A stretch of 64,000 bases of DNA from Nitrososphaerota archaeon (lineage in GTDB: Archaea > Thermoproteota > Nitrososphaeria > Conexivisphaerales > DTJL01): contig JAJPJS010000008.1 in the NCBI GenBank assembly GCA_021324115.1, forward strand, positions 146,160 to 210,159, given 5' to 3'. Numbering within the stretch: the stretch's first letter is position 1; each line of letters begins with the position of its first letter. This document shows, piece after piece, positions 5,242 through 31,193 of the stretch. The notes below the pieces were generated by a model. The model did no database searches. It was not told the origin of the DNA and saw only the letters and a program-made list of their open reading frames with translations. Made by a program: the position numbers and the translations under genes.

Positions 5242-6340
5242 GTCCGTGCTGTTTCTCACATATCATTTTCCACCTGAGATCGGTGGAATACAGACCAGAA
5301 TATCAAAATATGTAGAAATTTTTTCGGCGAAGGGACTCAAGCCAACCGTGTTCGTGATATCTAACAGAGAGGTGAGAAGCAGTGAACATTACAGCAAAGT
5401 GGATGTAAAATATTTTTCAGGGGATTCCAAATTTTTTCTACCTATCATCGCAGAAGCCATCAATACACTCTGCAAGAAACACGTCGATGTTGTACATGTT
5501 TTTACCGGTTGTTCAACTTTGCTGGGTTGCTCGTTCGTATGCCTTGGCCGGCTATTCCGCAGAAGGACTGTAATCAGTTTCTTCGGTAGCGAAGATTTCG
5601 CAAGTAGAGCACTGTTTTCACGTGCAATGAGGACGATTTCCCTTACCCTGGCTGATGGGATAGCAACAAACTCGGCATATACAATGAACCATCTTCCAAG
5701 CAAGTTCCTTCAAAAAAACCAAATTATTTCCGGAGGGTCCGATCGGGCTCGTTCGACCGGTCTATCTAAGAAACGCAGAACGATTTTGTATGTTGGCAGG
5801 CTTGTTAAAAGAAAGGGAGTCGACGATCTTATTGAAGCATTCAAAATCATCAAAGAGAGAATTCCCGATGTGGTCCTTGAAATAGTTGGTGACGGGCCAG
5901 AAAGAAGACAGCTTATGAATCTAGCAGATTCCGAGAATCTGGGCAGTTATATTCTGTTCAGAGGAATTCTAACCGGTGAAGACCTCGATCAGGCCTATGA
6001 AAGGAGTCTAATCGTGGTGTTACCCTCCAAGAAGGTGGAAGATGATTTCGCAGATGAGGGTTTGGGATTATCACTGATAGAGGGTTCTATGCACGGAAAG
6101 CCTCTGGTAGGCACAAGAAGCGGAGGGATACCTGAGATAATAGTCGACGGCTACAATGGATTGCTGGTACCGGAGGCCGACCCTGCCTCCCTGGCAGAAG
6201 CCATAATGAAGTTGCTTGAAGATGAGCAGTTTGCAACTGATCTTGGTAGGAATTCCTTGATACGGGCAATGCAAGCATTCACTTGGGAAGCTTCTGCAGA
6301 GAAGCTCATCGCGATATATCAGCGTGATAAAAAATCGTGA
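5228..6340 (+). CDS. Glycosyltransferase family 4 (GT-B fold)
   Basis: A 370-residue GT4 glycosyltransferase. Visible motifs are YHFPPEIGGIQTRI near the N terminus (nucleotide-binding loop), ILYVGRLVKRKGVDDLI at the start of the donor domain, IVGDGPERRQL, and the E-x7-E site EGLGLSLIEGSMHGKP followed by RSGGIPEI. The ATG at 5228 overlaps the deacetylase gene by 14 nt and is preferred to the TTG at 5219. The gene ends in GTGA shared with the flippase gene, so glycan assembly and export genes are directly coupled. The protein has an insertion rich in Asp/Glu (KKVEDDFADEG) before the donor motif, also seen in the GT4 at 22,718. Confidence 0.92.
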   Translation: MGKIRSVLFLTYHFPPEIGGIQTRISKYVEIFSAKGLKPTVFVISNREVRSSEHYSKVDVKYFSGDSKFFLPIIAEAINTLCKKHVDVVHVFTGCSTLLGCSFVCLGRLFRRRTVISFFGSEDFASRALFSRAMRTISLTLADGIATNSAYTMNHLPSKFLQKNQIISGGSDRARSTGLSKKRRTILYVGRLVKRKGVDDLIEAFKIIKERIPDVVLEIVGDGPERRQLMNLADSENLGSYILFRGILTGEDLDQAYERSLIVVLPSKKVEDDFADEGLGLSLIEGSMHGKPLVGTRSGGIPEIIVDGYNGLLVPEADPASLAEAIMKLLEDEQFATDLGRNSLIRAMQAFTWEASAEKLIAIYQRDKKS

Positions 6341-7947
6341 CGGAACCAAAAGTCAACACAGATAAGGCGCTGGGATTGGGAAAGACCGCCACTGGAGGCA
6401 TTCTGGCAGTCTTCAGTTCGCGCATAGCATCAAAACTGGTGTCACTTGTGGGCTCAGTGATACTTGTCAGACTTTTGATCTCACCAGCAAACTTTGGAAT
6501 TCTCTCGGTGGCGACAGTTCTCCCCGGCCTGACAATGCTGGGAGACGTTACTGGAGCATACTCAGCTTTACAGAAGGATGTAGCAGCATTCAAAGCGGGT
6601 GGTGATAGCGCGAGGGCTTGGTCCTCGTTCTGGACTGTTTTGTTAGTGAAAGGCGTTACGGGAGCCTGCTTATCCGTTCTCGCATTTCTGCTATCCTTTC
6701 CCGTAGCAGAGCTGCTTGGAAAGCCGAATGTGGCCCCATTCTTTCAAATCGGCTCAATTCTACCTCTTGTTTGGGTGCTACAGAATTCGGGGAAGGTTTT
6801 GATTGCGATGGATAAATCCAGATACTATGCTTTGCTGGACATCCTTGACGAAATACTGCTCAGCGCATGCCCGATAATTCCAGTTCTAATGGGTTTTGGC
6901 ATTTACGGAGCCATGGTTGGTCTTGTCATGGGTAATGTTTTGTTCCTCATAGCAACTTTATCGGTACTGGTAAGGGAAATGAGTCACCTTATCCCCCCTG
7001 ACAAGAGGAGCATTCAATTTCGCTTAACCTTTATACGCGTCACAAAATGGGGGCTACCTCTTGGCATTTCAAACAGCTTTGGCTCCTTTACTGGACAGCT
7101 AATCAACCTTATAGTTGCAAGATTCGTCAGTTTAGGGATATATGGACTCTACAGTGTGGCATCATCTGCAGTTTCGTTCGTAGGCTATGTTGATGACGCG
7201 ATCGGTTCCGTCGCATACCCCACATTTTCCAAGTTAGAGATCAAGAACGAACCAGCTACATTGCAGGTTATATTCAGATACGCCGTCAAATTCTCAACCA
7301 TCGCTGTGATCCCCATGGCACTGTTCGCTTCAATATTTGCTAAACCTATCATTGTTTTCCTATTCGGAGCTCAGTATACAAGCGCAGGCCCTTACTTAAC
7401 GATTCTCTCTTTGGCTTTTCTTGCGTACGGGCTTGGTTCGGGATTGATTAGTGACATGCTGCAATCTCAAGGCTATACAAAATTTCTAGGCGGCCTTGCT
7501 ATAATGTATACATCAATTCAAGTGGTGGTTGCCGCGTTTGTGATACCAACATTTGGTTTCATTCCCTATCTTCTGGCTAATCTGTTTGTGTTCGTTCCCA
7601 CCTTCATAATCAAGGTCAGGAAGGCGCGAAAGACCCTCGGGATATTTCCACCCCTGAAGGCAGTCTTTCCTGTTTATGTATCTGCGGCTGTTTCTGCGAT
7701 CCCTTCCATTCTTCTGCAATTGCTCTATCTTCCGGAGGTGCCCAAGATAATTCTGGGTGCCTTTATTCTCCTTACAATTTATTTTGTTACCTTGGTAATG
7801 CTGGGGGGAATATCGACCGGTGATATTCAGCTTGCCAAAAGTATTCTTGCTTCGCAACCCATTATAGGGAAACCGGTCAACGCCTTTCTTATGATACTCG
7901 ACCGACTGAGCCGTTCGGCGATCAAACAAAAGAATCAAGTGAAATGA
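6337..7947 (+). CDS. Polysaccharide/oligosaccharide flippase (MOP superfamily, Wzx-like)
   Basis: A 536-residue very hydrophobic protein with about 12-14 predicted membrane spans, beginning after a short cytoplasmic stretch with GGILAVFSSRIASKLV and followed by ILVRLLISPANFGILSV, the typical first-helix pattern of MOP-superfamily lipid-linked oligosaccharide flippases. Length and helix count fit Wzx/RfbX. It would move lipid-linked glycan from the inner to the outer face of the membrane, making it the export step for the flanking transferases. Its start (GTG) and its end both overlap neighbours (GTGA, ATGATG), a sign of translational coupling. Substrate is unknown. Confidence 0.9.
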   Translation: MTEPKVNTDKALGLGKTATGGILAVFSSRIASKLVSLVGSVILVRLLISPANFGILSVATVLPGLTMLGDVTGAYSALQKDVAAFKAGGDSARAWSSFWTVLLVKGVTGACLSVLAFLLSFPVAELLGKPNVAPFFQIGSILPLVWVLQNSGKVLIAMDKSRYYALLDILDEILLSACPIIPVLMGFGIYGAMVGLVMGNVLFLIATLSVLVREMSHLIPPDKRSIQFRLTFIRVTKWGLPLGISNSFGSFTGQLINLIVARFVSLGIYGLYSVASSAVSFVGYVDDAIGSVAYPTFSKLEIKNEPATLQVIFRYAVKFSTIAVIPMALFASIFAKPIIVFLFGAQYTSAGPYLTILSLAFLAYGLGSGLISDMLQSQGYTKFLGGLAIMYTSIQVVVAAFVIPTFGFIPYLLANLFVFVPTFIIKVRKARKTLGIFPPLKAVFPVYVSAAVSAIPSILLQLLYLPEVPKIILGAFILLTIYFVTLVMLGGISTGDIQLAKSILASQPIIGKPVNAFLMILDRLSRSAIKQKNQVK

Positions 7948-10900
7948 TGGTGTTTAGTTCCAAAGGGTCACGCATCTTCACTCTGTCAATACTGCTTGTA
8001 ATTTTGGTATCTTCAAACTCGATGGTACTAAGTTCAAGAAGCGACTCTGCGTCTGCCCAGCAATTTTCGAGCGGGATCCCTCCGACCTATGGGATATCCG
8101 AGCTCAGCCCATCCAATGCAATAAACCAGAGCGTTCTCTTTTCGGCCACCAGAGGCGACCCTTCCGTTTCGGCCTTGGAAGGGTTCATCGAGCAGAAACT
8201 TCTTCCTTTCGATATAAGGCTGGTTTTACTCGACATAGGCTGGCAGAACTACAAGGTGGGCGAAGTACCGTACGAGCAATGGGTCAACAACTGGCTAACA
8301 GCATGCGATTCCTTGGGGGTAGGCAATGTTCTCTCCATTCCGCAGCTTACAACTCTGGGGATAAATTCGACTTGGGTTGACAGTCTTCTGGCTATAGACC
8401 CATCTGCAAGAACTTTTGATGCACTCGGAAGGCCGATTAACTTCTTTTCTTTTGATAATCCAGATGTCACCACCTATCTGGAGAGTGATCTATCATTGCT
8501 GTTATCTTACTATGGGAACCACACTTCTTGGATAGGCTTGGGCGCTGGGGTGCCATACTCGAATCCATACTACCAAGGTTCTTCCGAAGTGCCTGTTATG
8601 GGCTACTCCAATTTTTCAATTCAGTCGTTCATGAACTCAGTATACTATTTCAGAGACGTTAACACATCAGGATTTCTCCCAAATGGTCTGCCTGATCCCC
8701 TCTGGAACACATTCGTCAATACTTCACAGACCATTCAGTTATCTTCTGGCGTTTGGATGGAATCTGTTCCCTACCGTGTAAGCGGGAACGGGTCGATGGG
8801 AACGACCGTGCGTATAAGATTCTATCTTCCGGCGAACGTTAGCGAAATTTCATTTAGCTGGTACGGATACAGGGTGGGTCATCCCGGGCCTCTTCTCTTG
8901 CAGCCATTTTCTGATGTGAATGGGGTACCCGGCAACAATCTTACGCCTGTTCCTATTGAGGACCCGGCTCAGAACGTAGGATCATCACCGGGTTGGCAAA
9001 CGTCCCCGGCTCTGAACATGTCGCTTGCTTCTGGGTGGTACTGGCTATTCATCAGTAATCCGATTGCCAATGATTCTGGTTACTACTATGTTTATCAGAG
9101 AGCTTATCAGGTTACGGACGCAGAGCAGGTACAACTTCTAGGTAACTCTGTACAGAACATAACTTCCCCTATTCTGGAAGTTCTGCAGAATGGAAACCCC
9201 ATCCAGGTGTATCCATACCAGCAGGACGTACCAAACCCCCAGCCTACTCAAAACTTTATTGCGACACATTCTTTTTCGTTTAACACCGTATTTCTTTTCC
9301 TTTCAGACAGGGCATATAATCCAATCAATGCTACAGTGGAGGTCATCGACCTTAACTCCGGAGCAATTGTCGGAGAGGGAATTCTCAGTCAAGCTCTACT
9401 TCAGGGTGTACAGAACTGGTCGCCCGTACTCCTGAATAAAACCGTAAGTGCAATTCAGGGTCATATGTATGAAATCCGAGTTGTGGAACCGCCTCAGTCG
9501 CAAGATTCATGGGCAACAGTCCTAAGGGGCGTGTTTACAAACCCATCATCAAGTGGTTTCCAGAACCAATCAAGTTATCTGCTATTCCGTCTAGAACTTC
9601 TTAGCTTTTCGGGCGGATTGCTGACATCAGACAGGATTACTTCTAACGGCAGAGATGCTGTAAGGAATGGCTTTCTCGACGCCGTCCGCATAATTCCTTC
9701 TTCCAACGAAACAATGGAATCATTTTCAATATTAATGAAGAATCTATTCAGTAATGGCGAAAATTACACAGGTCAAGGCACCTTCACGGTTTCTGTACGG
9801 CCGAGTTCTTCAAAGGGAAACTTTCCATCCAACATAACCCTCGAGTCCATATCTGTACCAGGAAGCAAGGTTCCGCAGAACGGATGGGTAAACATTACAG
9901 GCTTCCATGTGTCGTTGACAAAGGGGGATCCCTACTGGATTGTCATGTCATCGAATAGTTCAAGTGGTTTCTCTCTTGCGAGATTGACAAGTGCTTACAA
10001 ATATCAGGTCCTGGTGTCACCAAACAATGGCACGAGCTGGATTTATCCCTTTGAAGGGCCGACTGAGCTCTCCTTTATGGTAAATACTACGGGCGAATCC
10101 TTCGGTAATTTCATTGAAGCTATACCTGAGATACAATTATCCGGTAGCCAAGAATACGCTCAGCCTTTCTCGGTGTCGGCTCCTACCGAAGCCGTGGGCG
10201 TTTACATGGGGATAATTGAGAGAGCGAATCTTTTGCCATTGGGATCTGCACTGAAGGTTTCAATTCATCCGGACAATGGTAAGAATGCACCTTCGGGAAT
10301 CACACTAGCATCGGGTCTTTATTCTGGCTACAATCTGACATTTTACTCACCAGACCAAATACAATTCAGTACAATAGCTATGCTTTCACCTGGAATCAAG
10401 TACTGGCTCGTTGTACAACCCACTAACGGGACATATGATGTGGATCCAGTCGAATACTCTGCACGCCCGCCCGGTTTACCCGCCAATTGGACAGCCCTGA
10501 TATCCCCTGACAGCGGCAAGACATGGTCCCGTATCTCCAATTTCACCACCATCCTTTCTTATGAGTTGATAACCCCGGCTGTTTCAAATCCAACCCTGAG
10601 CACATACCAGATTTCCTCGTTTTTGGCTGAATATCACGGAACCCCAATTGATTCACAGGAACCACACGGTTGGAACGCATACATTAAGAGTTCACAGATT
10701 GAAACGTTCGAAGATCTTGTTTCAGAGGCGGTGATAGACACTGGACGCAATTTTCACTTCTTTATTGACAAAGGAAACAGCTTGACCTTTTTGGCAAACT
10801 CGGGAGCTCTCGATGCAGTTGTTCCCATGAATCTGGGGAGCTGCAGTGAATTGGTCAGTGCGCTTCTTGACACCTTTCCGCAATCATATACTCAATATCT

Positions 10901-12275
10901 GAGTATTCAGGGACTCTCCATCCAGTCGTGCCCTCCGTCTGCATTTTCGCAATACACGCAACAGCTTCAACTCATGAGTTATATCGGTCCTCAGTATGGC
11001 GCTCGTTCTGTGGCAAGTATACTTGTAATTGGAAATAACCCGCCCCAGACTCTTATGGGAGACCTAGAGGCAATCGCCAATGTTCAGTTTGTTCGAATAC
11101 AACCCGGCTCCGATAGTCCACCCTTGGTGAATCTTTCAGCATACACAGCCGTAATCTGGACAGCGTCCGAGCCGGTTGGGACGAATATACAGACATTATT
11201 CTATAATTACGTGCAATCCGGAGGCAGGTTGATTTTTGTAGGATATCCTCCAGACTGGGGGGTGAATTTGTTAGGCTTCAATCCAACGGAAATCCAATCT
11301 TACAAGCTATCAGCCAATTTGTCTTACACTAGGCAGCTTACAATTTTCACGGCCCACACACCATACTCCAGCGGTCTATCCTTAGGTCATCCTACACCAA
11401 ATTCTACGCTTGCTGTTGGAAACGATGTCCTGGTTTCGACCAACCAGTTTGGGTCCGGGATTGTCGTGGTACTTGAATCAACACAGAATATATTCGCTTT
11501 ATCCTTAGCCTCTCCACCCATTCAAATGCTGTCGAATGTGATTCAATACATATCGACTGGATCTCCCTCGCCTATTTGGTTCAACTTGGGACCCACGCCT
11601 GTATCACAACAGCAGATCACGGCATCGCTTTCAGGAATTCCCGGTGGTCCGCTAGAAGTATGGATTTCCAATCCAACCAACACCACCTTTACCGCCGGCA
11701 TTGGCATTAACGCTTCTGCAGTTGGAATGAATGGAGCTTGGAAGGTTATTGATCCTCTGTCTCTTACTTCAATGAATGGCACGGCGAAAACGATCACGTA
11801 CACCATGATATTGAGCAATTACAGCTGGGATGTGATTTACATCGAACCGCAGCGAAGTGACTTCATCATCCAATATACAAATATCAGATTGCTTGATCAG
11901 TTAACTTACCCAACTCAGACCGTATATTACCTGGAAGGTACATACAACGAAACGGCCCTCTTCGTCGTTCCAGTCCATTCCAGCATCAGATCTGTTTCGG
12001 TGGACGCCGGCGAAAGCCTTCCACAGTACGGTATTGCTCAGGCTTTGTTCAACGCTTCGCATGGCTGGTACTATAACTCGTCTAGTGCTACCCTCTTTGT
12101 GAAGTACAACTCTTCAGGGCTTGATACGGTGAGAATATTCATTTCATCCACTCCTGCCACACCTTTCCAGGAGTTCATAACTGTCTGGGGACTTCCCGTA
12201 CTCGCTGCGCTCGCAGCTGTAGAGGGTTTGACATTTTTCGTATTCAGGATGAAGAATACCCCCAAGCTTCGATAG
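7944..12275 (+). CDS. Giant secreted surface protein with TIM-barrel-like and amidotransferase-like domains
   Basis: A 1443-residue exported protein. A signal peptide or uncleaved anchor covers residues 10-40 (ending SASAQQ). Residues about 80-230 contain the strands VLLDIGWQNY, a long helix and SWIGLGAG, reminiscent of a glycoside-hydrolase TIM barrel. Two or more beta-rich modules follow (residues 250-860). A flavodoxin-like or class-I-amidotransferase-like domain (about 1025-1110, VRIQPGSD and GGRLIFVGYPPDWG) resembles the trimerisation domain of GH42-type enzymes. A single membrane helix lies near residue 1415, followed by a basic tail. Many N-x-S/T sites suggest N-glycosylation. It is homologous in layout and short motifs to the minus-strand protein at 18,224. 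I infer an extracellular glycan-active or cell-wall protein; catalytic residues are not established. Confidence 0.75.
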   Translation: MMVFSSKGSRIFTLSILLVILVSSNSMVLSSRSDSASAQQFSSGIPPTYGISELSPSNAINQSVLFSATRGDPSVSALEGFIEQKLLPFDIRLVLLDIGWQNYKVGEVPYEQWVNNWLTACDSLGVGNVLSIPQLTTLGINSTWVDSLLAIDPSARTFDALGRPINFFSFDNPDVTTYLESDLSLLLSYYGNHTSWIGLGAGVPYSNPYYQGSSEVPVMGYSNFSIQSFMNSVYYFRDVNTSGFLPNGLPDPLWNTFVNTSQTIQLSSGVWMESVPYRVSGNGSMGTTVRIRFYLPANVSEISFSWYGYRVGHPGPLLLQPFSDVNGVPGNNLTPVPIEDPAQNVGSSPGWQTSPALNMSLASGWYWLFISNPIANDSGYYYVYQRAYQVTDAEQVQLLGNSVQNITSPILEVLQNGNPIQVYPYQQDVPNPQPTQNFIATHSFSFNTVFLFLSDRAYNPINATVEVIDLNSGAIVGEGILSQALLQGVQNWSPVLLNKTVSAIQGHMYEIRVVEPPQSQDSWATVLRGVFTNPSSSGFQNQSSYLLFRLELLSFSGGLLTSDRITSNGRDAVRNGFLDAVRIIPSSNETMESFSILMKNLFSNGENYTGQGTFTVSVRPSSSKGNFPSNITLESISVPGSKVPQNGWVNITGFHVSLTKGDPYWIVMSSNSSSGFSLARLTSAYKYQVLVSPNNGTSWIYPFEGPTELSFMVNTTGESFGNFIEAIPEIQLSGSQEYAQPFSVSAPTEAVGVYMGIIERANLLPLGSALKVSIHPDNGKNAPSGITLASGLYSGYNLTFYSPDQIQFSTIAMLSPGIKYWLVVQPTNGTYDVDPVEYSARPPGLPANWTALISPDSGKTWSRISNFTTILSYELITPAVSNPTLSTYQISSFLAEYHGTPIDSQEPHGWNAYIKSSQIETFEDLVSEAVIDTGRNFHFFIDKGNSLTFLANSGALDAVVPMNLGSCSELVSALLDTFPQSYTQYLSIQGLSIQSCPPSAFSQYTQQLQLMSYIGPQYGARSVASILVIGNNPPQTLMGDLEAIANVQFVRIQPGSDSPPLVNLSAYTAVIWTASEPVGTNIQTLFYNYVQSGGRLIFVGYPPDWGVNLLGFNPTEIQSYKLSANLSYTRQLTIFTAHTPYSSGLSLGHPTPNSTLAVGNDVLVSTNQFGSGIVVVLESTQNIFALSLASPPIQMLSNVIQYISTGSPSPIWFNLGPTPVSQQQITASLSGIPGGPLEVWISNPTNTTFTAGIGINASAVGMNGAWKVIDPLSLTSMNGTAKTITYTMILSNYSWDVIYIEPQRSDFIIQYTNIRLLDQLTYPTQTVYYLEGTYNETALFVVPVHSSIRSVSVDAGESLPQYGIAQALFNASHGWYYNSSSATLFVKYNSSGLDTVRIFISSTPATPFQEFITVWGLPVLAALAAVEGLTFFVFRMKNTPKLR

Positions 12276-12287
12276 GTTCAATACAAT

Positions 12288-13088
12288 TTGAAGCCAACGA
12301 CTCCCATCTACTCTATCTGTATTACAAATTTCAATGAAGAATCTACTTTGCGAGAAAGTTTAGACTCGATCCTGTGTCAAATCGATACGAGCTATGAGGT
12401 GATAGTCGTCGACCAAAATAGTACCGACAGGTCGCGGCTTATCCTCGAGGAGTACCAGAATACAAACAAGATCAAATTGTATCACATGAGGGTCCGTAAT
12501 AGAGGGATGGGTAGACAATACGCCTTCGAGAAATCCAGTGGATATTACATTATTTCCAACATGGATACGGATGATATATTCAACTCTAATCTGAAAATAT
12601 TACTGGAAGGCTACAGAAAATATGCAGAAGGTAAGCTTCTTTGGGCGAGAAATAGAGCGGCAGATTCTCACTGGGGCGAGGGGCATATCACCGTTGTTCC
12701 AAGGTCGTTACTTATTGAGCTAGGCGGATGGCATGATTTGCATATCTGGGAGGATTGGGAGCTGGCATCTAGGGCGGCCAAGATAAAACGCTATTGCTGG
12801 ACAGATTTTCAGCTCATAGCGAAATTAAACCCTCATCCAGAGCGGATACGTGCTGATAGGAAATTCTGGTATCGCGTAATCAGTTACAGAGAAATGCGTA
12901 GAGTAGGTAAACAGATATTCACGCCTGATGAAGATGTCTCCACCTTTCAACACCTCGCTTCGATCTTTGCTTGGTGCCTGTCTATGATGAAAAGAAGTTA
13001 TAGGGACCCGTTCAACGCATATTTTGACTGTCAAGGCGAAGAATACCACATACAAGGCTGGGACATAGAATCACCACACTATTCCTGA
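12288..13088 (+). CDS. Glycosyltransferase family 2 (GT-A fold)
   Basis: A 266-residue GT2-type enzyme. The N terminus has the canonical ICITNFNEESTLRESLDSI strand-helix, then VIVVDQNSTDRS, and the metal-binding DxD-like MDTDD at about residues 86-90. A WEDWEL segment near residue 155 matches the acceptor-side ED motif of the family. No membrane span is visible. The TTG start lies 12 nt after the giant secreted protein, so it is still part of the long operon. Its TGA stop is embedded in a perfect 12-bp palindrome (13,085-13,096). It would add a single sugar to the same glycan as the GT4 enzymes. Confidence 0.88.
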   Translation: MKPTTPIYSICITNFNEESTLRESLDSILCQIDTSYEVIVVDQNSTDRSRLILEEYQNTNKIKLYHMRVRNRGMGRQYAFEKSSGYYIISNMDTDDIFNSNLKILLEGYRKYAEGKLLWARNRAADSHWGEGHITVVPRSLLIELGGWHDLHIWEDWELASRAAKIKRYCWTDFQLIAKLNPHPERIRADRKFWYRVISYREMRRVGKQIFTPDEDVSTFQHLASIFAWCLSMMKRSYRDPFNAYFDCQGEEYHIQGWDIESPHYS

Positions 13089-13096
13089 CGCGTCAG
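13085..13096. repeat. Perfect 12-bp palindrome over the GT2 stop codon
   Basis: CTGACGCGTCAG reads the same on both strands and contains the TGA stop of the upstream GT2 gene. It lies at the start of the only sizeable gap (39 nt) near the end of the operon. It may bind a dimeric regulator or be incidental; there is no loop or following T-run, so a terminator is unlikely. Confidence 0.5.
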
Positions 13097-13127
13097 ATCG
13101 AATTTCTGTCAACGGACGATAGTTGAA

Positions 13128-14291
13128 TTGAGAATAGCACAAGTGGGAGTTTACTTCGCTCCATTCATGGTAGGAGGCGCAGAATGGTATATGCTTAACG
13201 TTTCAAAGGAACTTGCAAGAAGAGGCAACGAGGTACACGTATTTACAGCTGAAAAGTACAAAGGAACCACACTCCCCCGGCAAGAAACAATAGATGGAGT
13301 TACCGTTCACAGAATTCCACTCAGGTTTGACCTGTCATACAGACTCAAGTTATGGGATGGCCTGGGAGACTCGATCAAATCTTTTGATTTCGATGTGGTA
13401 CATGCCTACGATTACGCCCAACCTCACACGGCAATAGCGATGCGGGCTGGCAAGGATATGGGCTCCAAAAACATCATCACTGTATTCGACGTACACTCGA
13501 TGATTCCGAGACCATGGTACAAACAACTCCCTATGAGACGAATTGAGCGGTACTTTGCTGAAAGATCATTCCCGCTTTCAGACAAAGTGCTGGTAAGAGC
13601 ACCGGAACTCATTCTTCCTTTGGAAGGTTTAGGAGTGTCTAGGGATAAAATCATCGTTACACCATCAGGTATTCTCGAGAGCGCACTCGAGCCTGCAGAT
13701 GGTCAGATCTTCCTAAAGGAGCACGGCATAGAAGGTTCGCCGGTAATTCTGTATTTTGGCAGGATGAACCCACTGAAAGGACCCCAGCATCTGATAGAAG
13801 CTGCGCCACGAGTACTTCAAACCTTTCCCAAGGCCACCTTTCTTCTCATAGGACCAGACCAAGGGGGTTACGCAGCCAAACTAAATAGGAAAGTCAAGCA
13901 GCTAGGGATAGAGAACAACGTTCGAATCATGGAGCCAATTTATGAGCATGTTAGCAAGATGCAAGCCTTCGCCTCATGCGATATTTTTGTTCTTCCCACA
14001 TCCTACGAGGGAACAAGTCAATCCATTTTCGAAGCTATGGCGCAAGGCAAGCCAGTCGTCTCGACTAGGACGGGAGGGATTCCGTTTCAGGTGGATGACG
14101 GCGTGGATGGTATACTTCTTCCGCTTCCCGTATCTGTTAGCCAACTTGGTGATACTTTGGTCGAGCTGTTATCAGACAAGCATAAAGCACATACAATCAG
14201 CGTAAACGCAAAGCAAAAAGCCGCTAAATTTACGTATAATTCGTTGGTGGACAAACTTCTCGGAATCTACGAGGGCAAATACACAACTTGA
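13128..14291 (+). CDS. Glycosyltransferase family 4 (GT-B fold)
   Basis: A 387-residue GT4 enzyme. The N-terminal loop FAPFMVGGAEWYMLN, the linker phosphate-binding ILYFGRMNPLKGPQHLI, the LLIGPDQGGY segment and the E-x7-E donor motif YEGTSQSIFEAMAQGKPVV followed by RTGGIPFQV are all intact. It starts at TTG 13,128 after a 39-nt gap and ends with TTGA shared with the next large secreted protein, again indicating coupled translation. It is the fourth GT4 of this operon, so the glycan has at least five differently transferred residues if every enzyme acts once, counting the GT2. Confidence 0.92.
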   Translation: MRIAQVGVYFAPFMVGGAEWYMLNVSKELARRGNEVHVFTAEKYKGTTLPRQETIDGVTVHRIPLRFDLSYRLKLWDGLGDSIKSFDFDVVHAYDYAQPHTAIAMRAGKDMGSKNIITVFDVHSMIPRPWYKQLPMRRIERYFAERSFPLSDKVLVRAPELILPLEGLGVSRDKIIVTPSGILESALEPADGQIFLKEHGIEGSPVILYFGRMNPLKGPQHLIEAAPRVLQTFPKATFLLIGPDQGGYAAKLNRKVKQLGIENNVRIMEPIYEHVSKMQAFASCDIFVLPTSYEGTSQSIFEAMAQGKPVVSTRTGGIPFQVDDGVDGILLPLPVSVSQLGDTLVELLSDKHKAHTISVNAKQKAAKFTYNSLVDKLLGIYEGKYTT

Positions 14292-17200
14292 ACCATCCAT
14301 CTAATAGGAAGGTATCTGTGCTTCTGGTCATTCTTGCCATAGTGATCTCTTCAACTCAGCTTCCCTCAATACCCGGTCGTGCAGCTCTGCCTGAGGCGAG
14401 CATTCCCCAGTCATCGGTGTCTCCGCAGGTTCAATCCAGCTTGAAAGCATTGGCCATCGTCTCGAGTACTGACATGTATCAGCCACCATACACAGAGCAG
14501 GTCGCCATAAATATCATGCGTAGCTGGGGCATACCATTTGATGTTGTTGCGGTAGGCTCTCTTAGCCCAGCAACCTTCTGGAACTTCCAGTCCAATTCAA
14601 GCAGATATCAGTTTGCAGTTTACTTCGGTTCAGCTTCCATGTCCACCGAAGGAACCGACCCACCATTAGCTGTCAAAGCGATAGAATCTGCAATACACAA
14701 CGGGACCAACTTTCTTTTCGTCGGTCCCGCAGTAGTCCCATACCAGCAATATTTCGGCCTTTCTGGATATACCGATTGCCCCAACCAGCCTCAAAACGGC
14801 GCGGGAGTTTGTGGCGAAACGTTGGCATTTGGAGTTCTTCAGAATTTCTCTGGAGTAATGCCCGGTTCTCCGTCATTCTACAGAGGTGAGGTGTTCAGCT
14901 CTTCTGGTACAACTCTGACCGACACAGCCATGCCCGTTGTCTCATGGAATGGCACTGGCACCGAGTTCATGAATGCTACCGTGGGGAGCGCCAACCTCTT
15001 CGAGCCGAATGTCATATACCGGAATCTGAACGGAACTCAGTTATGGTGGTGGGGTGGCACCGAAGGCCAATATGCCTTTTATCGAGAAGGATGGCAGGAA
15101 GTATTCTATAATACAGCAGATGCCTACAATGCACCGCAATTATTTGCGTCTACATTCGAGCCGGAGATAGACCTTTTCTACTACGCTCTTGAGAATATCA
15201 CTTCTGTCAATGTTGGAATCCTTCCCTGGTCCACAGGCGGGTCCGCAGAAGTGATCCGAGCCGAAGACCATGCTTCCATGTGTCAGTACAGTCAGTGCGG
15301 TGCCGTCACTGGCGTGATTCAGGCTCTTTTCAAGAGAGGTCTCGTGGGGGAGATAAATGTGGATTTGAATGGCTGGAGCGATTCGGTTGAGCACGTCGTT
15401 TCTCCCACACTTCCACCCGGCGTTGTTCCACCTCCTAACACAGTCCCTGGTTACGTATACTACGGGAACATGGGCGCGACTTGGAATGATACCTACTTTG
15501 CGTTGGCCGCAGTGGTTGACAACAAGAGTTCGACCACACGACTCACACCTACCAACATTGTATCGGGGGGTGTGTATTCTCAGCCTATAGATTTCATAGA
15601 TGGAAACACCACAGAAATTACTCAGGTTTCGGTGCTTGTAAATACATCATCATCAGCGGTCTGGAGGCTTGACCTTGCAGGGTCAAGCGGACAACTCCTG
15701 TATGTTTCCCCGCCCCAGACCTCCGTCGGCCCCAATCCCATGTGGATCAATTTTTCAGTGAACGTTCAGGGGAATCAGCAATCTTCTGGTGTCCCGAATT
15801 CGATTCAAGGAATCCTGAAACTGCAGCTGAACGTGACCTCCGGTGAAGTGAGTTGGTGGCGTGGTCAGAACCAGACCGACTACATCATTTTGGGAAGAAG
15901 CAACTGGGACATTGTGTATATAGCGAGGGTCGGCACGGCTAACTTCAGCAACTCCGTGCCCCTGGTTCCCGACAGCATTCTCATGGCAAATGGTGAACCT
16001 TACGCCCAGGATAACAGAACCATAGTCTTCGACCCCCAGGATAACATGACTTACCCAGGCGAACTTCATCCCGCCGACATCGTTGGCGAATTCAATCAAG
16101 GTGCACCCGGAGGAGTCAACTTTGAAGTATTTTTCACGCTTTATGACTGGGAACATTACGGCATGAATGCCATACACAACTTCCAGAACCTGGCGGCTAA
16201 GGGTTGGGTTGTGGACACGAACGGGTGGACTCATGCAAAGGATACACTGAATGATGCGGATAACGATTTTAGGTTCGGAAATGGATCAATTATGCCGCCG
16301 TCTGAACAAAAAATCAGGATCGACTCGATTGTCACGTATTTTAATGATTTAATTGGTCCGGGAAACTGGTCTAGATACTGGGCATTTGGAACAGATGCTT
16401 ACACATACTACCCCGCGCTTCAGCAGATTCAGGAAGCGGGATTCACCTATGCACAGCTCTCAACACAAGCATCCTCCACGCTGGATTATGTTCTTGCGGG
16501 GTACTGGAAGACAACACCCTCGGGTTTGTACTCAATTGACCAATCGCAGAAGGCGGTCAATGGTATATCTTGGCAAAATGCTGTCACTTACAACCAGACA
16601 AGGGAAGAATTTGGGGTCATATCCACCCATTCGGACTCTAATTATCCTTACAATGATTATGAGCTGGCATCTCAAAATGGCTGGACTAGTGGATATGGTA
16701 TTGCAGATACGTGGTTCTGTGGTACCACAACCAGATGTTTTGATTTTTGGTCCGCCACCATGCAGATGCTTATGAATGGAACTAGCAAGTACAGTTTTGA
16801 CATGACGGGCAATTCCGGGCATCTTTCCTTGATTGTCAACACAGGTGGCTCCCAAATAAACGCGGCGATTTACAGTGACCCATTGGTGTTCCGCGTACCT
16901 GAAAGCATAGGGGGACTCTACCTGTATTCGATAGGAGATAATGCTAGTATTGGTAGGCTGGCACCGCAGGAAGGTGGCAGCTATTACTACTACATAATCG
17001 GTCGGGGGGCGGGTTGGCTAAACATCACCGCAGAATATGGTATCGCTAAGCGGGTGGTTGGTCAGACTGTTCAGGTAAATCTTATACCGTTTCCAGATTC
17101 AACGCCGCTCAATTCGACGAACACATTCACACTGCTGTACTTGCGTAACGGTACGACCGTCCCGATGCCATTGGGGGCAGTACCCAACGATACGATCGTT

Positions 17201-18205
17201 GTCGACCCTGGGAGTTCGATGACAATATCTGGCGTCTCTATCGCTTCAGGCTCACACAGGGCGTGGACCATATCGGGAAACATGTCTCCTCTAGTTATAA
17301 ACCTGACCGGGGCTAGGATATACAACTACACATTCTATTATTATGAGTTGTTTAACGTAACTGTGGCCAATGATCTGCTATTCGGAGGAACTCCTCCTCT
17401 GTTCAATGTTACTTATACTACGATACCGGGTACAGATAATGCAACTCCCGTATCGAAGACCGCCCCTCTTAATTCATCGGTCTGGATGTTGAGCGGCACG
17501 GATTGGAACGTGGTGAGGCAATATACTTCACGAAACGGCACCGAAAGATGGATTCTTGTGGGAGCCGTGTCAGGGGAAGTAAATCAAAGTGGTGTTTATG
17601 TAGAAAATTACTATCATCAGTTCCTTCAGAACATTCAATTCTCAATGCTTTATGGAAGCAGCTTTGATACACCATCGGCATCGGGCTATCAGGATGGCAA
17701 ATTGGTTTCCATTCAGCTGAATCAGGAACCGACCAATTACTGGTTTGACGCCTATGGTTCAATCAACTTCACGAATCCTATTTCCGGTATCACTGGCGAA
17801 AGGTGGGAAACCGGGATGGCATCGGTTCCAGCAGACCAGCCCAGCATGGTCAATGTGACATACTTCCATCAGTATTATCTGACTTTTACGGCTTCGAAGC
17901 CAAACGAAGGTGCAGTCCCGAAAGGCGGTTGGTATAACTCCTCATCGCTGTCAATCAACGCACTTCCCAACAAAGGCTTTCTGTTCCGGCAGTGGAGCAC
18001 AAACTCCAGCGGGCTTGATATCATATCCCCCACCCAGCAGAGTACCAGGATCATTATCAACGGACCAGGAGTAGTCGTTGCTATATTCTATCCTGCGGTT
18101 AATTATTATTTTATTGCTCTCGTCACAGGCGTATTGCTCCTGGGAATATTCCTTGTCATTATGATATTCTTCCTCTTCTGGCGGAAAAGAGCAGTCCCAT
18201 TATAG
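14288..18205 (+). CDS. Giant secreted membrane-anchored protein with deacetylase-like core and B-repeat-like end
   Basis: A 1305-residue exported protein: signal peptide at residues 8-34, a single C-terminal membrane helix (about 1275-1297) and an Arg/Lys-rich tail. Residues 50-200 form a Rossmann-like or DUF2194-like module (LKALAIVSSTDMY, NFLFVGPAVVPYQQYFGL). VIRAEDHASM near residue 320 and FEVFFTLYDWEHY plus NGWTHAKD near 612-650 resemble, weakly, the motif order of polysaccharide deacetylases, separated by a beta-rich insert (about 430-560). Residues 1190-1265 resemble InlB-type B repeats (GFLFRQWSTNSSG). It has very many N-x-S/T sites. It probably acts on or within the exported glycan layer; the enzyme assignment is an inference, since the metal ligands do not match the classic motif exactly. 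Confidence 0.7.
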   Translation: MNHPSNRKVSVLLVILAIVISSTQLPSIPGRAALPEASIPQSSVSPQVQSSLKALAIVSSTDMYQPPYTEQVAINIMRSWGIPFDVVAVGSLSPATFWNFQSNSSRYQFAVYFGSASMSTEGTDPPLAVKAIESAIHNGTNFLFVGPAVVPYQQYFGLSGYTDCPNQPQNGAGVCGETLAFGVLQNFSGVMPGSPSFYRGEVFSSSGTTLTDTAMPVVSWNGTGTEFMNATVGSANLFEPNVIYRNLNGTQLWWWGGTEGQYAFYREGWQEVFYNTADAYNAPQLFASTFEPEIDLFYYALENITSVNVGILPWSTGGSAEVIRAEDHASMCQYSQCGAVTGVIQALFKRGLVGEINVDLNGWSDSVEHVVSPTLPPGVVPPPNTVPGYVYYGNMGATWNDTYFALAAVVDNKSSTTRLTPTNIVSGGVYSQPIDFIDGNTTEITQVSVLVNTSSSAVWRLDLAGSSGQLLYVSPPQTSVGPNPMWINFSVNVQGNQQSSGVPNSIQGILKLQLNVTSGEVSWWRGQNQTDYIILGRSNWDIVYIARVGTANFSNSVPLVPDSILMANGEPYAQDNRTIVFDPQDNMTYPGELHPADIVGEFNQGAPGGVNFEVFFTLYDWEHYGMNAIHNFQNLAAKGWVVDTNGWTHAKDTLNDADNDFRFGNGSIMPPSEQKIRIDSIVTYFNDLIGPGNWSRYWAFGTDAYTYYPALQQIQEAGFTYAQLSTQASSTLDYVLAGYWKTTPSGLYSIDQSQKAVNGISWQNAVTYNQTREEFGVISTHSDSNYPYNDYELASQNGWTSGYGIADTWFCGTTTRCFDFWSATMQMLMNGTSKYSFDMTGNSGHLSLIVNTGGSQINAAIYSDPLVFRVPESIGGLYLYSIGDNASIGRLAPQEGGSYYYYIIGRGAGWLNITAEYGIAKRVVGQTVQVNLIPFPDSTPLNSTNTFTLLYLRNGTTVPMPLGAVPNDTIVVDPGSSMTISGVSIASGSHRAWTISGNMSPLVINLTGARIYNYTFYYYELFNVTVANDLLFGGTPPLFNVTYTTIPGTDNATPVSKTAPLNSSVWMLSGTDWNVVRQYTSRNGTERWILVGAVSGEVNQSGVYVENYYHQFLQNIQFSMLYGSSFDTPSASGYQDGKLVSIQLNQEPTNYWFDAYGSINFTNPISGITGERWETGMASVPADQPSMVNVTYFHQYYLTFTASKPNEGAVPKGGWYNSSSLSINALPNKGFLFRQWSTNSSGLDIISPTQQSTRIIINGPGVVVAIFYPAVNYYFIALVTGVLLLGIFLVIMIFFLFWRKRAVPL

Positions 18206-18223
18206 GAACTGCGGCGTGAACAA

Positions 18224-21200
18224 TCATCCGCCGTCAGAGTCTTTCCCTATACCTTCGATGAGCTTGATGTTTTGTTTAGTCTTTAGCCATTCTATGGGGA
18301 CAAGCCCCACGACAAAAACAGTGATCGACAGCATCGCACCATACCCCGCAGAAGTTGCGGTTACAGTAAATGTCTGGCCGGATGCACTTTCAGTTCCGCC
18401 AGCCGAGGGATTTGGGTTTCCATTTTGCGGCTTGGTCGTTGAGTTCTGTCCATAACGGTCAGTACTCGAAGTATTGAAAGTCTGATAATTCCATCCTTGG
18501 GTAGTATTTTGGTAATATTCACTCTGGTTCGTACCCTGGCCGACTATCACCACCCCACCATGACCCGCACCGTCACTACCGGGCGCCCCAAAATCCTGAC
18601 CAAGGCCCGAGGATGTAGAGTTGGACGAACCCTGGCTTTGTCCTGTGCCGGTTCCGCTCCCGGAGCTGTTTGTATTCCCCGGAGTGCCGCTCCCCGTTCC
18701 AGTGCTCGACACATTGCCTCCTGATCCTGAACCCGTTCCTTGTTGGGTTTGAACGACACCCTGCAGGTAAACCGCAGAGATAGAAGTCGGGCCTTCAAGA
18801 AGCACCTGTCCCGAAGAGCCAGCCTGTGATGAATTTATTTGTGCATATTCGAAGTAGTAATACATGGATGAGTTCGATATCGAGGAAATATCGTTCTCGA
18901 ACCCAAATGAAACTGGGGTTCCTTGAAGAAGGCTCATCGAAAGAGGCAGTTGTGTACCCTTCAGTGAAGTTATTGAGCCATTTATATTTAAAATCAGCGT
19001 GGTGTTACCACCATCCGATTCTACATTGGGTGAGGCCGAGAGAGCTAGCTGCACGTCCGAGGGTGGAGGCGGTTGCGAAGGAGGCGGAGACGTCCCGCCA
19101 CCGCTGGTAACTGAGATGGACACCAGATTTGAACCCTTATAATGGATGAAAAGAAGTCCTTGACTGCTCAGGAACCAACCCTCATTATCATTATGAGACC
19201 AAGAGCTGCACGAGCCATCGGAAGCGATGCCTGTACATGTATATCCAATCTGAGTGGAGTTGATAGATTGGGAAGATGAATACTGAGGCAGGGAGCCTGA
19301 GGTGCTTGTGGAGACCGAGCTAACAGAAGTGGCATTGAGAACGACCCACTGGGACGAGTCAGGAGAACTGGATGTAGATATTGTGGCACCTCCGGAACTT
19401 ACCGACATTGATACCACCCTTGCAGTGCTGTACACTGGCGCGAAGTTTCCACCGTCCTTAACTATGTATATCGGAAGCCAGCTGTTAGCCGGAACGTTCG
19501 TTGAAATGTGTATGTCATTTCCTGTGCCGGTGGCAAGAACAGTCATGTCCAGAACATCAATTGCCGTCCAGCCTCCGGTAAGTCCGTAGTAGCTAGCACT
19601 CAAATGGATGTCAAATGGTGAAACTGTGCTTCCGTTGTTGGACAACCAAAGAAGCAATGGTCCTCCGGGAGCACCATCCACGCTGAACTGTAAATATGGA
19701 CTCCAGTTTTGTTGACCGCCGTAACTGCTCTCCCACAGAGCCGGAGCCATGTTCCCCCTACCGGCCGCATACAAAATCGCGTTTATCATGAGGCTAACGA
19801 AGCTGTCTCTGGGCGAGCCGTACATGACGCCAGAAAAGGAGGGTGGATTTCCTGAATAGGATAACCTCGCGTAGGGTTGTTCCAAAAGCACTGCCCTTCC
19901 TGAACCATAGCTGTTTACGGCTATGACAGGGTTAGAGTTCGAGTCCGCTACGAGAATCTGGGGGCTGGCACCTTGCATTGGAGTGATCTGGTACCTTATC
20001 CAGTACGGTGCATAGCTAATTGAGGTATATGGCCTTGTTATGGCGTTGCTCGCTATGATCGACAAGGAACTGGAGGTGGATACAGGGGTGCTTGAAGTCT
20101 GTAGACCAAGCAACACATTCTGGGAGTTGGGCGAACTACCGAAAGATGTATCGACCACCCCTCCCCCATTTTCCACGAAGCTCTGTAGTCTCTGTTCAAA
20201 GCTCGATGTAGGATTAGTGGGGGATCCCACGATTACGTTGAATTGGCTGAACGAACCATACTGCGTAAGATTACTGTCAGAACTTGGTGCCCAGGTGATG
20301 CTCACGGCTGGCGTAAGGAACTCAGGGAAGAATCCATCCTCGGAATCTCCAATCCAGAGAACTCTTACGTAACCACTCGTAGACCCATAATAACTTCCAG
20401 TGAAAACCATTCTGTTCAGAAGGCTTCCAAACGCTCTTGTATACATATTCTGGTAGAGGTCGTTGATGCCGTTGTACTGTGTTCCCCACATCCAATCATT
20501 CATTCCGAGTGGGTTGGTTGGAGCAAGCACGAGATCGGTGAGATACATCGTCCTGAGTTCGAGGGGTGTTAATGAACCCTGATTGTCCTGTGTATTCCCA
20601 AAGCTGTACCACGGAGAGTATGACCCGCTTGTCACTGAAAGGTCTTTTTGAATCTGAGCCATCGCATTATCAGCCCAAAAGGTTGCTGAACCGCCGCAAC
20701 TGGACTGACTTGGGGGGCATCCTATTGGGCCTCCGGCACCTGAATTGGCAAAGAGAAAGTTAGCCATATTAACATTAGGTATAGATTCAACTATTTGGGT
20801 AGGCAGTCCGGTGAAAACCACCAAATGCTTACCAAAAGCAGAAATTAGCTGTGTAAGATTATATTCAAGGTATGCTTGTTCATAGTTGAGAAAGGCGTTC
20901 CAGCCTACTAGTGGATAAACGATAGAACCCCCGGAATAGCTGTTGTCGTCATATGTCATTATCTCATTTGCCAAACTCGCAGTGCTGAAAGATTTGGTTT
21001 TGGCAATGAACATCTGGTATATTTCGGAAAGTACGTTTGTTCCTATGTAATATCCCGATTGGGTAATCTCTCTCCTGAACATAGGGCTGTTTGCGTAGGC
21101 CTGAATCGTCGCATTGTCGAATGGTCGCGCCGTCTTTATCACATTGTCTGTATTGGCATAATAATTTCTGTCTCCTGTGGCACCCTCACCTATACCTATC

Positions 21201-21838
21201 CAACTAGAGTAACTTCCATACCATTTGTACAACTGTAACAGGTCCTGAGACATTTGCTGATACACATATGGGCTGGCTATGCTCCAACCACTGGAAGACG
21301 TGCAACCGGCACAATTAACAAGAGGCGAAACCTCCCCCTGACTGTTTACAGTCTGAGCGCCTGGGTAAGCTTGCAGAAACGCTGTATCCCAACCGGGCGC
21401 AAAGAAATAGCCAAATTGTTTAGTGAAAAATATGTTGTATATCCCATACTGCTGAGAAACTTCGAGCCAGTCAGCAATCCACTGTTGATAACCTCCAAGA
21501 ACATACGTCCCCAGCGAAGAAGAGTTTACCGTACTTCCATCCATCCACCCAATATCTAGGAATACAAAACGGATTCCCATCGGGACAAAATACTCTTCTA
21601 TTACTCGACTCATTGCTGTCTGGGTCATGTACTGGTAACCACCTACCATCTCACTCAGTGTAGACTCGTCAAGAACAACCGGACCACCACTCAAGCCGGT
21701 TGAAAACGTCTGAATGTTGCTTCCTATAACTGGCGCTGCGGTTGCTCGATCAACAGGCAAGACTTCAAGAGAGATGCTGAATGCAGACATGGCGAAGATA
21801 CCTATCAGAAACAAAACAGTAAGTTTCTGCTTGATCAT
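18224..21838 (-). CDS. Giant secreted surface protein, paralogue of the 1443-aa protein, with Gly/Ser/Thr stalk
   Basis: A 1204-residue exported protein converging on the plus-strand operon (18-nt gap). The signal peptide spans residues 1-35 (ending ATAAP). The TIM-barrel-like region has FVFLDIGWMDGS and SWIGIGEG, matching VLLDIGWQ and SWIGLGAG of the plus-strand giant. A flavodoxin/amidotransferase-like module lies around residues 490-600 (VRVLWIGDSEDG, VENGGGVVDTSF), then a beta domain. The shared SLPQY motif near residue 885 precedes a GWFLSSQGLLFIHYKG segment. Residues about 1030-1130 are a low-complexity Gly/Ser/Thr/Asn stalk, likely glycosylated, before a membrane helix near 1170. A strong Shine-Dalgarno sequence (GGGAGG) precedes the ATG. 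Function is inferred as surface glycan handling or a structural layer. Confidence 0.75.
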   Translation of the reverse strand: MIKQKLTVLFLIGIFAMSAFSISLEVLPVDRATAAPVIGSNIQTFSTGLSGGPVVLDESTLSEMVGGYQYMTQTAMSRVIEEYFVPMGIRFVFLDIGWMDGSTVNSSSLGTYVLGGYQQWIADWLEVSQQYGIYNIFFTKQFGYFFAPGWDTAFLQAYPGAQTVNSQGEVSPLVNCAGCTSSSGWSIASPYVYQQMSQDLLQLYKWYGSYSSWIGIGEGATGDRNYYANTDNVIKTARPFDNATIQAYANSPMFRREITQSGYYIGTNVLSEIYQMFIAKTKSFSTASLANEIMTYDDNSYSGGSIVYPLVGWNAFLNYEQAYLEYNLTQLISAFGKHLVVFTGLPTQIVESIPNVNMANFLFANSGAGGPIGCPPSQSSCGGSATFWADNAMAQIQKDLSVTSGSYSPWYSFGNTQDNQGSLTPLELRTMYLTDLVLAPTNPLGMNDWMWGTQYNGINDLYQNMYTRAFGSLLNRMVFTGSYYGSTSGYVRVLWIGDSEDGFFPEFLTPAVSITWAPSSDSNLTQYGSFSQFNVIVGSPTNPTSSFEQRLQSFVENGGGVVDTSFGSSPNSQNVLLGLQTSSTPVSTSSSLSIIASNAITRPYTSISYAPYWIRYQITPMQGASPQILVADSNSNPVIAVNSYGSGRAVLLEQPYARLSYSGNPPSFSGVMYGSPRDSFVSLMINAILYAAGRGNMAPALWESSYGGQQNWSPYLQFSVDGAPGGPLLLWLSNNGSTVSPFDIHLSASYYGLTGGWTAIDVLDMTVLATGTGNDIHISTNVPANSWLPIYIVKDGGNFAPVYSTARVVSMSVSSGGATISTSSSPDSSQWVVLNATSVSSVSTSTSGSLPQYSSSQSINSTQIGYTCTGIASDGSCSSWSHNDNEGWFLSSQGLLFIHYKGSNLVSISVTSGGGTSPPPSQPPPPSDVQLALSASPNVESDGGNTTLILNINGSITSLKGTQLPLSMSLLQGTPVSFGFENDISSISNSSMYYYFEYAQINSSQAGSSGQVLLEGPTSISAVYLQGVVQTQQGTGSGSGGNVSSTGTGSGTPGNTNSSGSGTGTGQSQGSSNSTSSGLGQDFGAPGSDGAGHGGVVIVGQGTNQSEYYQNTTQGWNYQTFNTSSTDRYGQNSTTKPQNGNPNPSAGGTESASGQTFTVTATSAGYGAMLSITVFVVGLVPIEWLKTKQNIKLIEGIGKDSDGG

Positions 21839-26052: not shown

Positions 26053-26076
26053 GGTTTGTTGGGCAGGATTTCTAAC

Positions 26077-26610
26077 ATGATTCATCTCCGATATTTATCA
26101 GCTTTGATGCTTGCAATTGGGTCACTCGTTGCTGGCTTCTCCATCACTCCTGTTCTTGCATGCCACTGTGTCAGCCCTCCAGGGATACAGGGTCCGTCAT
26201 CCGCTGTACTTGTCTCCGGTCAGTCCACCATGCTGAATTACACGTTTTCATATGCTGACTTTCCGTCTGGAACCAACACAGTGACGATTCATATTACATC
26301 TCCTCCTTCTGGGTGGAGCTGGACGATCACCAAGAGTACATTTACGGTGAATGGTGGCTCAGGAGTCATAAAATTCACCGTAGTGGTGACACCTCCCTCA
26401 TCTGCCGGAGCAAATGCTCAGTTCACTCTCACTGAAACAAGCTCAGCGAGTGGCTTTAGCCCGTGTCCTCCATTCGTCGTCAAACTCAGTACAACCTCAC
26501 AAAGTACCGGAGTGCCAGAGTTTCCGTTACCGATGGCGCTGGTGGGTGCACTGGGCTTCGCCCTCGTGATGATGCAGAGAAAGCTTGCAGGAGCTAGGCT
26601 CAACAACTGA
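26077..26610 (+). CDS. Small secreted protein with PEF-CTERM sorting signal
   Basis: A 177-residue exported protein. The signal peptide ends at about residue 29 (TPVLA) and the mature chain opens with CHC. The middle is a Thr/Ser-rich beta domain (immunoglobulin-like in feel: SGQSTMLNYTFSY, VIKFTVVVTPPSS). The C terminus shows GVPEFPLPMALVGALGF then QRK, a tripartite PEF-CTERM signal. It lies just after the archaeosortase gene with its own promoter and is a likely substrate. No specific function is recognised for the mature domain. Confidence 0.85.
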   Translation: MIHLRYLSALMLAIGSLVAGFSITPVLACHCVSPPGIQGPSSAVLVSGQSTMLNYTFSYADFPSGTNTVTIHITSPPSGWSWTITKSTFTVNGGSGVIKFTVVVTPPSSAGANAQFTLTETSSASGFSPCPPFVVKLSTTSQSTGVPEFPLPMALVGALGFALVMMQRKLAGARLNN

Positions 26611-31167: not shown

Positions 31168-31193
31168 CTCAACTCGAAAATTTTGATTTGAAT

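Follow-up and report, generated by a model that had tools for sequence, protein, structure and literature searches.

The 64,000-nucleotide stretch of a Nitrososphaerota archaeon analysed here (contig JAJPJS010000008.1, positions 146,160 to 210,159; hereafter the window) carries the genes of two large proteins, which we call A and B. Protein A (18224–21838, minus strand) has 1,204 residues and protein B (7944–12275, plus strand) has 1,443; both genes are complete open reading frames (ORFs), that of B overlapping a Wzx-type flippase gene by 4 bases, and residue numbers below refer to these window copies. An earlier note on this DNA had proposed that the two are paralogues, and BLASTP aligns them in two colinear segments, one N-terminal (A 74–263 with B 76–244, 28% identity, E = 5e-18) and one C-terminal (A 638–910 with B 1163–1398, 26% identity, E = 2e-10). 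With inserts removed, profiles of the A-type and B-type subfamilies described below match over 779 columns at E = 2.5e-59. The motifs that had suggested the relationship recur in one order in both proteins: LDIGW (A 94, B 96), SWIG(I/L)G (SWIGIGEG at A 212–219, SWIGLGAG at B 195–202) and SLPQY (A 849, B 1358).

Export and anchoring, which had also been proposed, agree with a simple hydropathy scan, in which A and B each show a hydrophobic stretch at either terminus: N-terminal segments at A 6–24 and B 11–29, and predicted C-terminal membrane segments at A 1164–1185 (18284–18349, minus strand) and B 1411–1434 (12174–12245, plus strand). By eye, neither C-terminus (A, ...VGLVPIEWLKTKQN...; B, ...FFVFRMKNTPKLR) shows the PEF-type pattern of archaeosortase substrates. 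Ahead of its membrane segment A, and not B, carries the Gly/Ser/Thr stalk that the earlier note had described (residues 1034–1150; 18389–18739, minus strand; 56% Gly, Ser or Thr, against 32% upstream). N-x-S/T sequons number 19 in A and 38 in B. We give even odds, as part of the interpretation developed below, to A and B belonging to a single lineage-restricted family of extracellular proteins with a membrane anchor, the export topology being predicted from sequence.

Domain plan and the split barrel of B

From end to end, A consists of its N-terminal hydrophobic segment, a GH42-like barrel region, a Rossmann-type domain, beta domains, the stalk and the C-terminal transmembrane segment. The barrel-like region (residues ~60–480; 20399–21661, minus strand) is not split by modules and holds E218 within SWIGIGEGATGDRNYY. 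It is followed on the same strand by a GH42 trimerisation-like (amidotransferase-like) domain (residues ~484–695; 19754–20389) and by two beta domains (GGPLLLW...GTG and SLPQY...GW; residues ~705–915; 19094–19726) that are conserved in A, B and a further relative, C. B presents the same elements on the plus strand: the first half of a barrel-like region (residues 76–262; 8169–8729), in which Ala replaces Glu218 of A, a GH42 trimerisation-like domain (residues ~1018–1205; 10995–11558) and two beta domains with SLPQY (residues ~1210–1400; 11571–12143).

The likeness to GH42 was measured with hhalign against a profile built from nine GH42 proteins of the phylum; each E-value is that of one comparison, and no probability rises above a modest 61.5. 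That best value belongs to the trimerisation domain of A (A 526–652 with GH42 441–578, E = 7.8e-5), and strands beta3–beta4 of the barrel also match (A 120–215 with GH42 55–138, E = 0.003). The joint A+B profile matches the barrel segment at E = 4.2e-4 and the trimerisation domain at two places (E = 6.7e-4 and 0.034), and B alone gives E = 0.0012, in its trimerisation-like domain, and 0.012. All these matches are colinear; each run also returned lower, non-colinear matches at E = 0.35 or worse. When the GH42 profile was confined to gap-poor columns, the barrel segment was the best match, scoring 33.3 for A and 41.0 for A+B. None of 120 column shuffles reached the real score (maxima 26.5 and 30.0), reversed profiles scored 15.8 and 17.5, and control profiles of alpha-amylases (8 proteins) and GT2 glycosyltransferases stayed at or below 24.2 for A, A+B and B, which is noise only. 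Colinearity and controls thus support, at the level of profile similarity, the GH42-type plan that the earlier note had seen in A and B, for beta3–beta4 and the trimerisation domain.

Database searches with single families returned less. PF02449, the GH42 barrel, has no match in A or B at E ≤ 1 and none in the window genome (G000), and both proteins score below the cut-offs of all Pfam families. Below the curated cut-offs, the Rossmann-like domain of B weakly matches the GLMA second domain (PF22369; B 1064–1104, E = 0.0067, 16.6 of 27.7 bits), which is absent from the 61 relatives searched, and that of A matches DUF7408 (PF24157; A 531–651, E = 3.9e-4, 20.9 of 27 bits). Sequence searches of the PDB gave no match for A and only three chance immunoglobulin-type matches for B. 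The B-type profile did find six listed sequences there, all beta-galactosidases or beta-1,2-glucosyltransferases, weakly (E = 0.32–1.2) and in the trimerisation-like domain; the A-type and D-type profiles drew unrelated weak matches only. The Rossmann-like domain may possibly mediate trimerisation. It had previously been counted twice, since the amidotransferase-like and the GH42-trimerisation-like domain of the earlier note are apparently one and the same. The idea of an additional glutamine amidotransferase domain was rejected because there is space for only one Rossmann-type domain; the earlier domain reading was otherwise largely right.

A barrel-like region is present in both proteins, as had been supposed, but only in A is it undivided. 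In B it is interrupted by beta modules of the choice_anch_R type (residues ~263–885; 8730–10598, plus strand; borders by alignment), an insert of ~620 residues that also splits the barrel of other B-type proteins. These are the lineage-specific beta modules of the earlier note, and B passes the NCBIfam cut-off for choice-of-anchor R (NF041539; E = 6.1e-9, 36 bits against a cut-off of 30, in two stretches, with B 768–868 over the cut-off). Two A-type relatives share with B the site of this block, before a GWNA motif; window A has no such block. Beyond the insert, the second barrel half of B (GWNAY..., residues ~886–1015; 10599–10988, plus strand) is shortened, with ~50 columns missing in B-type proteins where A has PWYSFGNTQDNQG...NDWMWG. 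Insertion and shortening together would make a working active site in B unlikely.

Relatives and catalytic residues

In the window genome (2.14 Mb, 27 contigs), a search with A finds A and B only, and among 101 genomes including its own it matches two, its own and that of G001, of the same family. The G001 protein, C, has 1,216 residues and resembles A only in its C-terminal part (28% identity, BLASTP E = 8e-23). A C-terminal-domain profile run against 400 genomes of the class matched three (G000, G001 and G672). Among 121 relatives of G672, five carry the family (G672, G724, G725, G740 and G741), and a B-type profile searched against 300 genomes of G672's order returned the same five, which brings the other genomes with relatives of A and B to six.

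The members fall into four types. B-type proteins occur in the window, twice in G672 (36% and 35% identical to B over the full length), twice in G724, once in two pieces in G725 and as partial copies in G741 and G740. A-type proteins are that of the window and two on contig 68 of G724, so that A-type and B-type occur together in both places. C, in G001, represents the C-type. D-type proteins, one in G672, two in G725 and one in G724 (loci of the type as a whole: L065:3047-7270, L065:1174-2889, L070:2338-6354 and L071:2923-7117), carry the modules ahead of the barrel; in G724 modules and barrel form two ORFs, and one of the G725 copies is a short stand-alone protein with a weak Tat-signal match. 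D-type aligns with A through the Rossmann domain and the C-terminal beta portion (probability 98, E = 1.2e-14), while the realigned barrel part is unconvincing. Searched with the D profile, the window genome yields A (E = 1.1e-10) but no D-type protein, and G001–G003 yield no D-type protein either. No D-type protein, the short version included, has a Pfam domain or a PDB match, and the type does not match the GH42 profile (score 19.2); the G672 copy has a weak NF041539 match (22.9).

The two A-type genes of G724 (L068:1-6435 and L062:2-6115, both minus strand) lie near each other on one contig and encode giant proteins of more than 2,000 residues. Both have modules in the barrel, one with an extra insert and the other with a Ser-rich stalk. 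Elsewhere in the window genome, on contig C8 (L047:5718-6347, plus strand), a 209-residue protein sits between housekeeping-type genes; it begins with a hydrophobic segment and has, of the beta domains, the last type alone (C-terminal-domain profile, E = 4.6e-5). A search with C matched 122 of 398 genomes of the phylum and was dropped: among the matches listed, all but that to window A lay in C from about residue 657 on, in repeat or low-complexity sequence. Two genome-contig scans and one viral-contig scan found no relative. We found no description of the family in the literature searched (archaeal glycoside hydrolases, choice-of-anchor domains, surface polysaccharide export) or in the Pfam and NCBIfam scans. 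Within these searches the family is undescribed, on a known GH42-type scaffold; new here are its extent beyond the window, the split and shortened B barrel, the stepwise disappearance of acidic residues and the association with exporters.

Two Glu residues act in GH42 catalysis, one as acid/base and the other as nucleophile, for example Glu160 and Glu318 in BiBga42A (available parts of PMC10688820), and the GH42-like Op5Man5 has its Glu pair in strands 4 and 7 (available parts of PMC8233224). In A, the Glu of SWIGIGEG stands five positions after the Trp, as does that of GWQIDNE in GH42, but a gap-free extension of the profile alignment would leave E218 three residues short of the Glu of GH42; E218 is a candidate, and the likely, equivalent of the acid/base residue. 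This beta4 Glu is kept in all three A-type proteins and absent from all seven B-type proteins that cover the site, with Ala in window B and Thr in the other six (two C-terminal pieces lack coverage). No nucleophile Glu can be assigned in A or B by the GH42 sub-profile or by eye: the by-eye beta7 position is Phe, Leu and Tyr in the three A-type proteins, and the region is absent from B-type. The homologue alignment accordingly upholds the earlier observation that a catalytic Glu pair cannot be assigned, with E218 kept in A-type and absent from B-type. The loss of both the beta4 Glu and ~50 barrel columns argues against B as an enzyme, and B is probably non-catalytic. D-type proteins conserve acidic residues at two places, in [ED]-[TAS]-P and in [ED]-x-D-T, and are possibly the active members.

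Gene neighbourhood

Upstream of B, a run of plus-strand genes encodes an NAD-dependent sugar epimerase/dehydratase (2954–3910; PF01370, E = 1.1e-67), a VimE-related, deacetylase-like protein (3907–5241; 41% identical to the corresponding neighbour in G672), a GT4 glycosyltransferase (5219–6340; 45% identical to its G672 counterpart) and the Wzx-type flippase (6337–7947; PF13440, E = 1.6e-22; 39% identical to the Wzx of a G724 locus). Junctions in the run touch or overlap by 4–23 bases (2953/2954, 3910/3907, 5241/5219, 6340/6337 and 7947/7944). The deacetylase-like protein resembles the VimE-type family in its C-terminal half (NF053580, E = 1.4e-14) but at 53.5 bits lies far under the equivalog cut-off of 440. 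Downstream of B lie a plus-strand GT2 glycosyltransferase (12288–13088; PF00535), a GT4 and then a 1,305-residue protein. GT2s that are 30–45% identical to this one are encoded near six further loci of the family, whether of A, B, C or D type.

The association with exporters recurs. Eight B loci are known, two of which (G741 and G740) lie at contig ends; at all six with readable flanks, an exporter is encoded on the same strand no more than four genes away. It is a Wzx flippase at three loci (the window, where it adjoins B; G725 L064, with one gene between; G724 L063, with three genes between) and an ATP-binding cassette (ABC) pair directly upstream at the other three (G672 L044, G672 L046 and G724 L061); the L046 and L061 pairs and the L064 Wzx were identified by comparing translations with scanned ones. 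The VimE-like deacetylase is present at five of these six loci (the L046 and L061 copies called by reading translations), and the G725 contig ends before reaching that far. The window and G672 share the order epimerase, deacetylase, GT4, exporter, B and GT2, with ABC in place of Wzx in G672.

Farther along the window, on the plus strand, are an exosortase/archaeosortase (24933–25808; PF09721, E = 1.3e-17; TIGR04178, E = 1.5e-11, over the cut-off) and a UDP-sugar dehydrogenase that would supply uronic acid (26697–28034; PF03721/PF00984/PF03720). Common to the window and G001 are an archaeosortase, small proteins of PEF-like type and a pair of UDP-sugar dehydrogenases, of which the second, like the genes in G001, was called by reading translations. 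This gene content points to a cluster whose products assemble a polysaccharide for the cell surface and carry it out.

Three small secreted-looking proteins (23939–24754, 26056–26610 and 31188–31838, plus strand) lie beside the archaeosortase gene and have C-termini that we take to be PEF-like, and G001 has a similar pair (L005 13398-13922 and 12425-13336). The 1,305-residue protein (14288–18205, plus strand) belongs to the same gene run as B and has hydrophobic ends; an InlB-type repeat near its C-terminus is sub-threshold (PF18998, E = 4.4e-4), and parts of it resemble a deacetylase or hydrolase by reading. It was rejected as a family member, its best BLASTP match being to C at E = 0.16.

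Role of the family and its alternatives

Compared with the GH42 beta-galactosidases (PF02449), whose domains A, B and C are a barrel, a trimerisation domain and a beta domain, proteins A and B keep the order barrel, Rossmann, beta, with colinear profile matches in the first two. Unlike those enzymes, they have no PF02449 match and no assignable nucleophile, and they carry a predicted membrane anchor in a biosynthetic context; B additionally lacks the beta4 Glu and has a split and shortened barrel. According to the available parts of PMC8233224, a GH42-type barrel and trimerisation domain also occur outside GH42, in the trimeric enzymes Op5Man5 (GH5) and Bs164 (GH164), at 12–17% identity. In the same parts of that source, Op5Man5, unlike A and B, keeps its Glu pair on beta4 and beta7, with mutants tested, and no anchor or inserted modules are described for either enzyme, as compared with the predicted anchors of A and B and the inserted modules of B.

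The computed features (paralogy, GH42-like segments, the insert, residue loss and gene context) are the basis of our interpretation, from which we infer the export topology, the identity and binding of a polymer, the stoichiometry and the step served. A and B would descend from, or be built on the plan of, GH42-type glycosidases, with barrel, trimerisation-like and beta domains. The cluster would make a polysaccharide, a flippase or ABC exporter would carry the polymer out, and A and B, each held in the membrane by one C-terminal helix, would meet it at the outer face of the export machine, bind it and then hold, guide or locally remodel it. B, which would have lost its catalytic site and acquired beta modules in mid-barrel, would bind, tether or guide the chain as a scaffold; A, raised on its stalk, with the candidate E218 and an undivided barrel, would bind the chain or still act on it. 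We consider it an even call that A and B are export-coupled, membrane-anchored, GH42-derived proteins that handle glycans. B-type proteins are most likely glycan-binding scaffolds, and A-type proteins may retain some activity.

Several points count against this interpretation. Binding, localisation and export are predictions from sequence and gene context. E218, no more than three positions away from the acid/base Glu of GH42, falls just beyond the end of the profile alignment, and strands beta5–beta8 of A are undetectable against GH42 (score 16.0, against 13.3 ± 2.4 and a maximum of 20.4 for shuffles). AlphaFold confidence is too low (predicted local distance difference test, pLDDT, 33.6 for A 45–800 aligned with two B fragments and 29.4 for the Rossmann-like domain alone), so the completeness of the barrel is unproven. 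GH5 and GH164 enzymes share the GH42 architecture at insignificant sequence identity (available parts of PMC8233224), so the ancestor need not have been GH42 itself. The acidic residues of D-type proteins, at two places, mean that catalysis may survive in the family. Finally, G672, G724, G725, G740 and G741 are draft bins (67–96% complete, 2–6% contamination), and none of 197 better genomes of the order matched the B-type profile; the true hosts of these copies could therefore be other archaea, through contamination. The placements in the window (a 337-kb contig) and G001 (a 382-kb contig, 99% complete) are safer.

A-type and D-type proteins could instead work as glycosidases or transglycosylases, trimming or editing the polysaccharide at the surface once it is exported, with B as an inactive partner. 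Glu218 would then serve as the acid/base, and the part of the missing nucleophile would fall to an unusual residue or to a neighbouring group on the substrate. The retention of E218 in GEGATGDRN near the GH42 acid/base position in all A-type proteins, the conserved acidic positions of D-type and the co-occurrence of A-type with B-type speak for such editing, but the residue ahead of E218 is Gly, where the GH42 reference (GWQIDNE) has Asn, A has no Glu at the beta7 position assigned by eye and the second barrel half shows no detectable likeness to GH42; we regard it as unlikely, though a serious contender.

Proteins of this size, with a C-terminal anchor, a Gly/Ser/Thr stalk, beta modules and so many sequons, could instead form a glycosylated, anchored coat in which former enzyme domains are building blocks only. 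A search with A that reaches only two of 101 genomes is not what a universal coat protein would give, and the conserved coupling to exporter, deacetylase and glycosyltransferase genes and the strong differences in domain order between copies also make such a surface layer improbable. Least credible is the digestion of environmental polysaccharides for food by A and B as secreted catabolic enzymes: the GH42-like segments and predicted extracellular location would suit it, and GH135, GT39 and GH92 proteins with signal peptides are reported from related soil Thaumarchaeota (available parts of PMC10640624), but the cluster is biosynthetic (sugar epimerases, GT4 and GT2, flippase, UDP-sugar dehydrogenases, archaeosortase), the catalytic residues are degenerate and the predicted membrane anchor is permanent. 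The binding or processing of a polysaccharide coat is probably the role of A and B. Of the earlier suggestion of an extracellular glycan enzyme or a structural layer protein, the enzyme half is improbable for B-type, and the gene context favours polysaccharide export over a stand-alone enzyme or an S-layer protein.

More tentatively, the family may define a class of export-coupled pseudo-glycosidases, GH42-derived and anchored, with barrels opened by beta modules and stripped of catalytic residues, that work with Wzx or ABC exporters to receive and tether new archaeal surface polysaccharide. To our knowledge, very few proteins have been described that assist polysaccharide export in archaea from outside the cell. 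If the export-coupled role is true, the pairing of one family with both flippase-type and ABC-type exporters would give a handle on how such archaea hold or process their sugar coat. The family would also illustrate the turning of an enzyme scaffold to a structural or binding role, with acidic positions lost by degrees on a glycosidase scaffold, from two conserved in D-type to one in A-type and none in B-type.

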